Assembly (NCBI GenBank): GCA_015521325.1
Contig: WAOK01000079.1
Location: forward strand, 1-62,328
Direction: 5' to 3'
DNA from: Desulfurococcales archaeon
Lineage (GTDB): Archaea; Thermoproteota; Thermoprotei_A; Sulfolobales; NBVN01
DNA length: 62,328 nucleotides
The translations under genes were made by a program, and so were the position numbers. The notes beneath the pieces were generated by a model. That model saw only the letters and a program-made list of their open reading frames with translations. It was not told the DNA's origin and made no database searches. Positions 36,016 through 55,477 of the stretch are shown here, one piece after another. Each line of letters begins with the position of its first letter. Position 1 is the first letter of the stretch.

Positions 36016-36717
36016 TTACCCGACATATTCAGCAAGTACCATAGCGTGGTCCTTGTCGTATGGGTCGAGATAGACTATGTCAATCGTTTTGAAACCGTTT
36101 TCCTCGAGCACCTCGATCTCCTTACGGAATACCTCATCCGGTGCAACAGTGACATCAATCGACCTTGCCTTTATGGCGAAGTATAGCTTCCCGCCGCGCC
36201 TCAGGAAATACTTAGCATTCAGCACTACAAGCGATGCTTGCTCAGGCTGCGCGACATCCGCATACAATATGTCGGCAACGTCAACTATGTGTGCGTACTT
36301 GTTTGGGAATCTTGCATCACCGAGAATTGGCACTAGGTTCGGTCGGGTCTCAGCAACATTGACTAATTCCCTCACGACCCTGGGAGCGAACTCCACGGCA
36401 TAGACTATGCCTGACTCTCCCACGAGGTCGGAAACGTGGGAGGGAGTTGTTCCGGAGCCAGCGCCGAGATAAAGTACCCTCGAGCCCTCGGTTATGGCTA
36501 GCTCCTTTATCCCTTTCAAGAGGGCTGCTGCCAGCTTGCTCCTGAAAGCGTTCCACTCTCTGTACTCAACCTCACCGATCTTGAACAAGCGCTCGCCATA
36601 GACTCTCTTACCCGGGGCTAGGTTGCGGGTCGCTAGCCTGACCGAGCCGTCCTCTAACTCGACGACGTAGACACCACTATACTTCGGGTGCTCCTCTATC
36701 TTAGCGACTGACGACAT
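36016..36717 (-). CDS. flpA: Fibrillarin, C/D-box RNP 2'-O-methyltransferase
   Basis: SAM-dependent catalytic subunit that methylates ribose at sites chosen by C/D guide RNAs. About 233 residues with EYREWNAFRSKLAAA, the SAM motif VLYLGAGSGTTPSHVSD, VYAVEFAPRVVREL, LGDARFPNKY and ADILYADVAQPEQA. GGAGGTGG upstream fits the ATG at 36717; a GTG two codons earlier is also possible. It follows nop5 in the same operon. A guide RNA for this enzyme lies at 53.0 kb. Confidence 0.96.
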   Translation of the reverse strand: MSSVAKIEEHPKYSGVYVVELEDGSVRLATRNLAPGKRVYGERLFKIGEVEYREWNAFRSKLAAALLKGIKELAITEGSRVLYLGAGSGTTPSHVSDLVGESGIVYAVEFAPRVVRELVNVAETRPNLVPILGDARFPNKYAHIVDVADILYADVAQPEQASLVVLNAKYFLRRGGKLYFAIKARSIDVTVAPDEVFRKEIEVLEENGFKTIDIVYLDPYDKDHAMVLAEYVG

Positions 36718-36731
36718 CGCCACCCACCTCC

Positions 36732-37964
36732 TTACCTCTTACCTCTTCTACCCTTCTTTCTTTTACCGCGCCTACTCCAGCGCCTCGGCTTTGGCTTTAC
36801 CTCGCGTATCCGCTTCGGCGGCTTCGGGTACTTTTCCTTGATCTCCTCGATACGCTTCATCAACGCCTCCTTCAACTCCTTACCAATGAAGCGGCCAGTG
36901 AAGTAGTCAGCTTTCGCAGCGATCGCTAGCTTCGTGGCGAGTGCCCTAGCTATCTTACCCCTCTGCCACTTGGGCGAGCTGTGGATGTACTTGAACTGGA
37001 ATATTATACCGTGCTTCGGTGGCCTCCCTCCAGTCCTTAGGGCGCGGAATAATGCCTTCTCTGCCCCGAGAACCTGGATCGTGCTCGCAGGCATCTTTGC
37101 TAGGTTCTCCAAACTCCCGGCAAGGCTCAGTAGCCTCGCACCTAGCAACGGGCCGACCAGCTCCGTTATGTTCGGGGCCACCTCTCTCATGACCATACCG
37201 ACATATTCCGTGAGCTCGTCCCTCATCCTATAGAGCTCCAGAATAAGTGAGGCAAGCGCTCTCATCTGCTCGATGTCGAAGTCAGAGAGATCGGCACCAA
37301 TAGATTTCTTGGCTATCTCAATGATGCGTTTAGCCTTACTCTCGCTTAGGCCTATCTCCTTCAATGCCTCTTCGCTAAGGTTATCCCTGCTCCCTATTTC
37401 CGCAACGATCCTTGCGTAGGTCTTGTGGTCGGGTACGAGGTCATCGAGTTCCGGGAAGTGGATGCTGTACCACTCCCTTAGCCTGGAGGAGAACAGGTTT
37501 ATCGTTTTGTCTATGTCGTCGATAGCCCTGATCGCCTGTATCGCCAAGAGGTCCCTCTTCTGCGCGTACCTCCTCAGCTTCTTCCTGGTGATGAGGATCG
37601 AAATCTCGTGCACAAACTTCACGAATTCCTCAGCGGAACCTATGAAGCTGCCCTCAACAGCGAACTCAGGTATTTTCTCACGTAGCGACAGAACTAGCTC
37701 AGCACCCGGGCCAATGTCGTAGCTGAGCCCGAGATGTGAAGCCGCCCTAGCGTGACCGTCGTCCTCAACGATGACGTGTACGTTGCCGTACTCCTTGAGC
37801 TTTCGGAGGAGTTCGACGAACTCATCGGAGTAGCCCCTTTCCTCTATCTCGAGCGCCCTAGATATCACGGAGTTTACGTCCTTCTTAGCGAATACCTTGA
37901 CTACCTCGCTGCCGTCGCTGGCGAACGCGCCGACCAGTGTGTCGATAGCAGAAAACTTCTTCAT
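36732..37964 (-). CDS. nop5: Nop5/Nop56-58 scaffold protein of C/D-box RNP
   Basis: Scaffold that binds L7Ae-bound guide RNA through its Nop domain and holds fibrillarin through its N-terminus. The 410 residues include a long coiled coil (~125-250), the Nop domain with GPLLGARLLSLAGSLENLAK and the region GAEKALFRALRTGGRPPKHG, and a lysine/arginine-rich tail of about 30 residues. It is head to head with S30e. Confidence 0.96.
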   Translation of the reverse strand: MKKFSAIDTLVGAFASDGSEVVKVFAKKDVNSVISRALEIEERGYSDEFVELLRKLKEYGNVHVIVEDDGHARAASHLGLSYDIGPGAELVLSLREKIPEFAVEGSFIGSAEEFVKFVHEISILITRKKLRRYAQKRDLLAIQAIRAIDDIDKTINLFSSRLREWYSIHFPELDDLVPDHKTYARIVAEIGSRDNLSEEALKEIGLSESKAKRIIEIAKKSIGADLSDFDIEQMRALASLILELYRMRDELTEYVGMVMREVAPNITELVGPLLGARLLSLAGSLENLAKMPASTIQVLGAEKALFRALRTGGRPPKHGIIFQFKYIHSSPKWQRGKIARALATKLAIAAKADYFTGRFIGKELKEALMKRIEEIKEKYPKPPKRIREVKPKPRRWSRRGKRKKGRRGKR

Positions 37965-52201: not shown

Positions 52202-52957
52202 TTAGGCTTTCGGGGCAAGCAAGTACTTCACGAAACCTCCTTCAGCGAGCGGAAACAGGATATTGAGCGGTATGCCGCTCCCGAACCTCACCTCTATTGT
52301 CTGGACGTGCCCGGCGAGATCGATAACCTTCGTGATGTAGCCCTCGTCGTATCTCTCGCTCGACCCCGACTCCGGGGCCTTGAGCTCCAGCAAGGAACCA
52401 GCTATCCTGGAGAGCTTAGCCTCAGCACCTATCTGAACACCCCTCAACACAAGGTCATCTCCCTGCGCCCTGAACTCAATCGTCTCCGCACCCTTCAGAT
52501 CCTTTATGGCTGTCTTGAACGCCGACGCTATCGCCTTCGCCTCTACCTCGAATTCGAGGTCGGGCTCGGGTAACTCCTCAGCAACTACCTCTATCGAGCG
52601 AAACCTGTACCGTCTCGTCACATTACTTTCAATAACTAGCTCATAGAACTCCTCCGACGCCCTAAAAACTAGCTTATCAGTTTTCTTGGGTGTGGGAACC
52701 GCCTTAATGAGACCGGCAACATTAACGCCCACGTTAATCGGCTTCTTCACCTCGTACGTGAGGAACGCGTCGGTGCCGAGGTTTATGTCCAGAAGGGCCA
52801 CGCGGGCTGGGTCAAGCGCCTTTATCCTAAGACCTTCTTCGCCGAAAGTGAAGAGAGCCTCATCCACCAACGAGCCAAGAGACTTCATCAGCACCATGAA
52901 GGTTTTCGCTCCCGGGTACTCGAACTCGACAGCCCATTCTATGTCATCAACCACCAT
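52202..52957 (-). CDS. pcn: DNA sliding clamp PCNA, second copy
   Basis: PCNA of about 251 residues starting MVVDDIEWAVEFEYPGAKTF; LRIKALDPARVALLDINLG is the conserved first-half signature, KPINVGVNVAGLIKAVPTPK follows, and PLNILFPLAEGGFVKYLLAP forms the C-terminal strand. It differs widely from the copy at 16.8 kb, so they are old paralogs and probably distinct subunits of a heterotrimeric clamp. The ATG at 52957 is preferred to the GTG at 52963, which lies inside the GGGTGG ribosome binding site. Confidence 0.92.
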   Translation of the reverse strand: MVVDDIEWAVEFEYPGAKTFMVLMKSLGSLVDEALFTFGEEGLRIKALDPARVALLDINLGTDAFLTYEVKKPINVGVNVAGLIKAVPTPKKTDKLVFRASEEFYELVIESNVTRRYRFRSIEVVAEELPEPDLEFEVEAKAIASAFKTAIKDLKGAETIEFRAQGDDLVLRGVQIGAEAKLSRIAGSLLELKAPESGSSERYDEGYITKVIDLAGHVQTIEVRFGSGIPLNILFPLAEGGFVKYLLAPKA

Positions 52958-52987
52958 AGCCACCCGAATCTAAATTACGTCACCCGA

Positions 52988-52996
52988 CATAATATC
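52988..52996. promoter_or_regulatory. Bidirectional TATA element between PCNA and the C/D guide RNA
   Basis: CATAATATC reads GATATTATG on the other strand. It is about 26 bases from the PCNA start region on the minus strand and about 24 bases from the C box of the guide RNA on the plus strand, so it can serve both. Confidence 0.4.
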
Positions 52997-53011
52997 ACTG
53001 AATACGGAGCC

Positions 53012-53080
53012 CTAGGGTGATGAGGGCGACTCCGGAGCTGAGGAGCGATCTCGATGACGAACCGTGTGAGGGCTGAATAA
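53012..53080 (+). ncRNA. C/D-box guide sRNA for 2'-O-methylation
   Basis: All four boxes are present in order: C box GTGATGA (53017-53023), D' box CTGA (53038-53041), C' box TCGATGA (53051-53057), D box CTGA (53073-53076). The guides are GGGCGACTCCGGAG (53024-53037, before D') and CGAACCGTGTGAGGG (53058-53072, before D). Spacer length between D' and C' is nine bases. The methylated base would pair with the fifth guide base upstream of D' or D. The targets were not identified here. Confidence 0.85.
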
Positions 53081-53153: not shown

Positions 53154-53450
53154 ATGTCTCTCATCGACGTAGAGATTGAGGCAAGAAAGATCATTGAGGA
53201 AGCCGAGAGGAGGGCTAAGGAAATCATTGAGGAAGCAAGGAGAAAGGCAGAGGCCTTCAAGAACGCACCCATCGAGAACCCTCTGAGCGAGGAGGAGATA
53301 CGGAAGATCAGAGAGGAGTACGAGAGGAGGCTGCGTGAATTCGAGGAAAAAAAGAAAGAAGAATTAGCCATCATGAGATCCAGATTCGAGCAATACAAAG
53401 AAGAACTCGTTGCCGAACTCGTGAGGATGGTGTCGGGGGTCGGGCAGTGA
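53154..53450 (+). CDS. atpH: A-type ATP synthase subunit H (peripheral stalk)
   Basis: Helical protein of 98 residues, almost all coiled coil (EARKIIEEAERRAKEIIEEA, then EIRKIREEYERRLREFEEKK). With subunit E it forms the peripheral stalk that holds the A3B3 head against rotation. It is the first gene of the operon and overlaps atpI by four bases (GTGA). Confidence 0.88.
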   Translation: MSLIDVEIEARKIIEEAERRAKEIIEEARRKAEAFKNAPIENPLSEEEIRKIREEYERRLREFEEKKKEELAIMRSRFEQYKEELVAELVRMVSGVGQ

Positions 53451-55477
53451 GCCTGATCCTCTCCCTGCCGGAGAGACTTTTCTACGCTAGGGTCATTACT
53501 GTAAGCGACAGTGTAGATAAGGTCCTTAAGATCCTCCAAGAGGAAGAGGCAATCCATCCGGAACGCTCCGGAAAAGCAACGAAAGAAGACATAAAGTTCG
53601 TGGAGGAACTCCGTCGCGACGTGGAGAAGCTGGAGGACATAGTCAGTCGTATAGAGAAGATGCTTCCCTCGCCCGTACTAGTTTCTTTAGAAGGAGAGAG
53701 AGTGATCACGAGGCCCGTATACGAGGAATTCAAGGAGATCTTGAATGAACTCAAGCATATCAATGAGAAAGCTGAGGTCATGGGGGAGAACATAGAGAGG
53801 CTTAACGAATCACTTAACGAGGCGAGGAAACTGTACAATATCATTACTATATTGACGCCTAAATACGGAGATAGACCGGCTCTGGAACTGAACTATGATG
53901 GTGAGATAATATTCACGAAAGTTGTTATTCTCGATCCACGTTCATTAACGATAATGAAGGAAAGGCTGCCGGAAGAGGTCGTGGTTATTGACGAGATCCC
54001 CCTCGAAGAGCGCATGGTAGCCGTGATTGCTGGACTCAGTGGGTATCGCCACGACTTCCTGCGCGTGGTGTCAGAGGTTAGGGCCGAGGTAGTAAATATT
54101 CCTGCTGTGGAGAAGCCCTTGAGAGAACTCGTGACTGAGTTTGAGAGAAGAATCAAGGAATTAGATACAATGCTCAAGGATCTGAAGGAAAACCTGAACG
54201 AACTGGTAATGGGCTCAGTTAATTTACTGGCTAGGGCCAAGGTCATAGGCTCCATAGTTAAGGATCGCGTGAGAGCGCTTCTCAATGCTATTAGGGGTGA
54301 GTACCTCATAGCGGTAGAGGGATGGATACCTGAGAGGAAGATCCCGGAGCTGGAGGCGAGACTTTCAAGAGAGGCTCCAGCGTCAGCTATAACTAAGCTC
54401 GATCCGAAGAAGGAACCGCCAACGTTGATGAATAACCCGAAGCCCGTGAAGCCCTTTGAGCTGATAACTAAGATATACGGAGTCCCTAGGTATAGCGAGT
54501 GGGACCCTACCCCGCTTATCGCATACTCTTTCCTCATATTCTTCGGGCTTATGTTCGGGGACTTCATCTACGGTCTCGCCATGTTCATACTCGTCGCCTT
54601 CGTACTCGATAGGTCAGGCCTCATAGACGACCCCACATCCCCCGGGTACCTGACACTCAAGAAGGTGCTGATGATACTCTCGGGCGCCTCTATGGTGGTG
54701 GGCCTGCTTTCTAACACGTTTGCAGGGTACTCCATAGTAATAAGGGACGGCGCCCCAACTATGGTGCTTGCTGAAAACGCTAACCAAATACCATCGCTGC
54801 TCAACCTGGCCGACCCGCTATTCTTCATAGTGCTGGCCATAGTCATCGGGCTAATTCACGTGAACATAGCACACGCCATATCCCTCGTGAGAGCCATCAA
54901 GGAGGGCAACAAGGGCAATGCCATGGCAGAGGCAGGGCTCCTAATCGCTGAGGTATTCGGCATACCCTACATAAGTCACGCAATGCTGAACTACGACTTA
55001 CTGCCGCTTCCAGCTGACGCCTACAGATACCTCCTCTACGGCTCCCTAGCGGGGGTAGGCATACTCATCGCTGGCAGGCTAATAGGGATGAAGGGTCTCG
55101 GCATACTCCTCTGGCTCTTCGACCTCACGGGAGTCCTTGGTGACACCCTATCATACACTAGGCTCGCTGGACTCGGCCTAGCGACCTACTTCATGGCCAA
55201 ATCATTCAACAGCCTCGCCACGGGTGCGACGCTCGGAATAGCTGGCATAATTGGTGTCCCGATAGTTGGGCTGGCTGTCGGGATAATCATCGGTGTAATA
55301 ATAATGTTCCTAACAAACATGCTGAACATAGTATTCGGCATCATAGGTGCGTTCGTACACTCTCTAAGGCTCTGCATGGTCGAGTTCCTGCCTAAGTTCT
55401 ATGAAGGCGATGGAAGGGAGTTCCTGCCGATAACCGAGAAGATACCTAAGACTGTCATGGTCGGTTCTCCATACTGA
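53447..55477 (+). CDS. atpI: A-type ATP synthase subunit I (membrane, a-like)
   Basis: Protein of 676 residues. The first ~350 are a soluble, coiled-coil-rich arm that binds the peripheral stalks; the C-terminal ~320 hold about eight membrane spans. EVFGIPYISHAMLNYD and GDTLSYTRLAGLGLATYFMA contain the essential arginine and its surroundings, and MLNIVFGIIGAFVHSLRLCM VEF is the conserved final helix. This subunit forms the ion half-channels next to the K ring. Confidence 0.95.
   Translation: MSLILSLPERLFYARVITVSDSVDKVLKILQEEEAIHPERSGKATKEDIKFVEELRRDVEKLEDIVSRIEKMLPSPVLVSLEGERVITRPVYEEFKEILNELKHINEKAEVMGENIERLNESLNEARKLYNIITILTPKYGDRPALELNYDGEIIFTKVVILDPRSLTIMKERLPEEVVVIDEIPLEERMVAVIAGLSGYRHDFLRVVSEVRAEVVNIPAVEKPLRELVTEFERRIKELDTMLKDLKENLNELVMGSVNLLARAKVIGSIVKDRVRALLNAIRGEYLIAVEGWIPERKIPELEARLSREAPASAITKLDPKKEPPTLMNNPKPVKPFELITKIYGVPRYSEWDPTPLIAYSFLIFFGLMFGDFIYGLAMFILVAFVLDRSGLIDDPTSPGYLTLKKVLMILSGASMVVGLLSNTFAGYSIVIRDGAPTMVLAENANQIPSLLNLADPLFFIVLAIVIGLIHVNIAHAISLVRAIKEGNKGNAMAEAGLLIAEVFGIPYISHAMLNYDLLPLPADAYRYLLYGSLAGVGILIAGRLIGMKGLGILLWLFDLTGVLGDTLSYTRLAGLGLATYFMAKSFNSLATGATLGIAGIIGVPIVGLAVGIIIGVIIMFLTNMLNIVFGIIGAFVHSLRLCMVEFLPKFYEGDGREFLPITEKIPKTVMVGSPY

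Follow-up and report, generated by a model that had tools for sequence, protein, structure and literature searches.

Archaeal C/D-box sRNAs carry boxes with the consensus sequences RUGAUGA and CUGA, and have guides that are typically 10–12 nt long, with the target at the fifth nucleotide (PMC4644070). Two described systems come closest to the RNA analysed here. In the tRNA-directed sRNAs of archaea, as outlined in a review (PMC7994747), one guide is for a tRNA—some are aimed at position 34—and the second guide is without a target. The archaeal pre-tRNA-Trp intron, according to work cited in PMC6313347, is a C/D guide for Cm34 and Um39. The element that we describe lies at 53017-53076 (plus strand) of the window, which is the whole 62,328-nucleotide stretch of DNA that was analysed. 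It resembles the tRNA-directed sRNAs (Pyrobaculum families of Lui et al. 2018, via PMC7994747) in its C, D', C' and D boxes, in being encoded alongside fibrillarin and Nop5 and in its one-guide pattern, and differs from them, so far as the review's description allows comparison, in coming from a Desulfurococcales-type archaeon and in having tRNA-Val(CAC) as its predicted target. With the pre-tRNA-Trp guide, as cited there, it shares the machinery and the predicted Cm34 of a C34-containing tRNA, but that RNA is an intron of the very tRNA on which it acts, with targets for both guides, whereas the RNA in the window is a separate gene in which only the D guide has a target. The computed boxes, conservation, single copy per genome, complementarity and register lead us to give a probability of roughly 0.83 to the reading in which a C/D-box sRNA directs Cm34 of tRNA-Val(CAC) and carries a D' guide to which we can assign no target.

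Box architecture and distribution

Judged from box order, spacing and conservation, the segment 53017-53076 is a genuine C/D-box sRNA, ordinary in kind, with true ends that are probably a few bases further out on each side. Box C (GTGATGA, 53017-53023) is an exact RUGAUGA, and is followed by a 14-nt D' guide, GGGCGACTCCGGAG (53024-53037), box D' (CTGA, 53038-53041), a D'-C' spacer of 12 nt (53042-53053), box C' (ATGACGA, 53054-53060), a 12-nt D guide, ACCGTGTGAGGG (53061-53072), and box D, an exact CTGA (53073-53076). Boxes C, D' and D thus match the consensus exactly and C' deviates at one position. The D guide falls within the 10–12 nt usual in archaea; the D' guide, 14 nt here, measures 11–14 nt in relatives, mostly 12. 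The C-D'-C'-D pattern occurs only once in the window, both strands considered, and in none of 60 dinucleotide-preserving shuffles. The sequence-only reading of this DNA had recognized a guide RNA with four boxes, and the RNA type, the positions of C, D' and D, and the 14-nt D' guide all stand. Its C' box does not: the TCGATGA that it chose, with a 9-nt spacer and a 15-nt guide, is off by three bases. Because relatives conserve an RTGANGA directly preceding a 12-nt guide, we place C' at 53054-53060, and the D guide and the D'-C' spacer are therefore both 12 nt long.

The best-scoring Rfam C/D model, sR33, aligns along its whole length and places the boxes, C' included, as we do, although at 20.2 bits (E 0.019) it stays below its cut-off of 37 bits. 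Against the archaeal C/D families in Rfam (sR33, sR47, sR32 and others), the boxes are common to both and the guides are different, and none of the 14 loci submitted (the window copy and 13 from relatives) reached the gathering cut-off of any family. The sRNA belongs to a familiar class of RNA in which it has gone unlisted, and Rfam does not recognize it at its cut-offs.

The element is widespread in its order. A BLAST search against 60 relatives recovered the C'-guide-D segment from most genomes of the family and from many of the order. A core pattern for this segment, TGANGANCCGTGTGAGGNCTGA, was matched in 56 of the 118 genomes sampled from the class, a single time in each (the reversed control gave 0), and is present in 83 public contigs, nearly all of them named Desulfurococcales, Acidilobaceae, Pyrodictiaceae, Sulfolobales or Thermoprotei. 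Ten letters of the guide are set by the pattern itself and are constant in these copies by construction; box C, the D' guide and box D' were not required by the search, and 71 of the 88 distinct copies parse with all three, most of the others being near-misses. Conservation of the boxes in related genomes, on which the sequence-only reading had staked its proposal, is what these copies display: box C is kept in most of the 88, D' follows CNGA and C' follows RUGANGA, while the D'-C' spacer ranges from 3 to 27 nt among the parsed relatives. The guide base adjoining box D, the first of the guide, differs among relatives.

The distribution is uneven between families. Nearly all genomes of family f9 carry the core pattern, none of f2 does, and in f11, whose genomes are larger, it turned up in one of the many that were sampled; in f11 and f2 the guide may have been lost or may have diverged. 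A match in a Candidatus Adiutrix bin (L204) is without a C box and was treated as chance. A Thermoproteota copy, L213 (contig JAPDJV010000014.1), has ATGATGA as C' and a quite different D' guide, ATAAGTTTTG; a PCNA gene lies about 0.8 kb upstream of it.

The D guide and its predicted tRNA target

We compared the D guide with the 45 tRNA genes found in the genome itself. It makes an unbroken run of 11 Watson-Crick pairs with the anticodon arm of the organism's own tRNA-Val(CAC), CCCUCACACGG, and the nucleotide paired fifth from box D is the wobble base C34, so that a run of at least nine Watson-Crick pairs including the fifth nucleotide is present. None of 400 permuted D guides reached 11 pairs with the same tRNAs, and four reached 10. 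The sRNA thus probably directs methylation of C34 in tRNA-Val(CAC). If it is expressed as we predict, L7Ae, Nop5 and fibrillarin would assemble on its C/D and C'/D' motifs, the 12-nt D guide would pair with the anticodon arm, and fibrillarin would transfer a methyl group to the ribose of C34, which pairs with the guide at the fifth position from box D. The two proteins that the sequence-only reading had reported in the same window are indeed encoded there, both on the minus strand: fibrillarin, the methyltransferase of the C/D RNP, at 36016-36723 (Pfam PF01269, E 3.8e-102), and Nop5, its scaffold, at 36732-37964 (PF01798 and PF21572). Among the 27 tRNA-Val(CAC) sequences examined, 26 share one and the same target arm, and this near-invariance leaves no compensatory change or covariation to test.

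The same 11-nucleotide stretch of tRNA-Ala(CGC) pairs with the D guide through one G·U, and the guide may act on this tRNA too. A genuine C/D sRNA whose D guide has its main substrate elsewhere, either tRNA-Ala(CGC) at C34 or an RNA outside the screened set, is a reading that this second match and the missing rRNA of the assembly both leave room for. We nevertheless consider it improbable, as tRNA-Val(CAC) pairs without any G·U, all copies found keep the guide U that faces position 35, and relatives' rRNA offers at most about 7 consecutive pairs, the figure obtained when three members of the family were screened in their 16S and 23S. Methylation of C34 in tRNA-Val(CAC) remains the preferred prediction.

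The sequence-only reading had expected the two guides to direct two ribose methylations and had proposed searching tRNAs and rRNAs for at least nine pairs. That search succeeded for one guide, with the 11 pairs to tRNA-Val(CAC); in relatives' rRNA the D guide stopped at 7, and for the D' guide no convincing target survived among the RNAs screened. We therefore predict a single kind of methylation, the Cm34 specified by the D guide, and not two. Membership of the double-guide class that methylates rRNA, which entails rRNA complementarity for both guides, is likewise not borne out by the relatives' rRNA.

A tRNA-modification survey, which does not cover every isoacceptor, makes no mention of Cm34 in tRNA-Val(CAC) (PMC7668247). 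The sRNA would add a well-conserved guide for wobble C34 to the tRNA-modification map of Desulfurococcales-type archaea, and it yields a concrete prediction, Cm34 in tRNA-Val(CAC), that is checkable in cultivable relatives, such as those in Staphylothermus, Pyrodictium or Zestosphaera. A further sequence resembling the D-guide target, CCCTCACGCGGC, lies in the intron of an ARAGORN call of tRNA-Ser(CGA) that looks misassigned (L078, G000:C85:6214-6310); it would form 10 Watson-Crick pairs plus a G·U, probably by chance.

The D' guide

The D' guide is conserved in kind. Just behind box C it carries a motif, about CGAYNYCGG, that persists throughout the order and takes lineage-specific forms in the family of the window; its spacing from D' shifts by a base. 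Although rated 99.8% complete, the organism's own assembly (G000) gave no match for 16S or 23S; it does contain 5S, SRP RNA and RNase P RNA. The 16S and 23S that were screened are those of relatives. No target of the D' guide survived in relatives' rRNA (23S of 16, 16S of 7), in 5S, SRP RNA or RNase P RNA, or in the organism's own tRNAs.

Candidates were set aside when guide and site failed to change in step, when the register was wrong, or when permuted guides fitted nearly as well. In 23S, CGCCGAAGTGGCTC, beside the conserved stretch GATAGCTGGTTC, and CCGGAGTCGCC of genus g10 failed on co-change or register. Among tRNAs, CTCCGGAG of tRNA-Arg(CCG) gives 8 pairs, is self-complementary and places the register at position 36; for the T arm CCGGGGUUC of several tRNAs, two permutation tests gave fits as good in 7 of 300 and in 30 of 100 cases. 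Two further candidates, GACCGGGGTCGC in 23S and CCGGACTCGTCC in 5S, bear on the possibility that both guides work, with the D' guide directing methylation of an RNA of this organism, most likely at a 23S site such as GACCGGGGUCGC or at the 5S site CCGGACUCGUCC. With GACCGGGGTCGC in the 23S of relatives, this species' D' guide forms about 10–12 pairs, G·U included; with the species' own 5S rRNA it pairs at 11 of 12 positions, around one mismatch. In other lineages, however, guide and sites do not change together, in 5S as in 23S: G057 and G048 have A where the guide keeps C, and most family members are unmatched. Moreover, in 30% of cases permuted guides attain at least nine pairs with the rRNA of one relative. 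We regard a second, D'-guided methylation as unlikely, and return to an sRNA with one predicted target.

A D' segment without an in-register rRNA or tRNA target could have a role other than selecting where methylation occurs, such as helping to hold the substrate tRNA or binding a different RNA, an idea that we offer as a long shot. An sRNA family that spans the order is a means to ask what role the targetless second guide plays in tRNA-directed sRNAs.

Genomic setting and promoter

The sRNA lies between the genes that the sequence-only reading had named. Upstream and divergent is the PCNA gene (52202-52963, minus strand; Pfam PCNA_N), and downstream the A/V-type ATPase operon starts at 53154 on the plus strand, with a small coiled-coil subunit (53154-53450) and the I subunit (53447-55477; Pfam V_ATPase_I for this second ORF). 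PCNA is head-to-head with the sRNA in 22 of 23 loci of the window's family, and the ATPase operon follows it in several genera. This synteny, together with the divergent intergenic position, is what could be said for a chance or promoter-related sequence in place of an RNA gene. Such an origin is strongly disfavoured and we give it almost no weight, since the element is kept at unrelated loci outside the family, with the box spacing of C/D RNAs, and its guide fits a tRNA in the methylation register. At seven loci from other families neither PCNA nor the ATPase operon adjoins the sRNA; the location is therefore a trait of the family and the RNA itself is older.

Within this setting the promoter is less clear than the RNA gene. 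The TATA-like element that the sequence-only reading saw upstream is present (ATAATAT, 52989-52995), and its assignment to the sRNA is doubtful. It also stands about 29–35 bases upstream of the divergent PCNA start, and because its distances to that start and to box C are about equal, it cannot be confidently assigned to the sRNA; from its position it may be the PCNA promoter. An arrangement in which ATAATAT serves PCNA and TCTAAATTA, near 52970-52978, serves the sRNA may be the actual one. The gap between PCNA and the sRNA (52963-53017) is short and must carry two divergent promoters, and some relatives show two distinct TATA-like elements.
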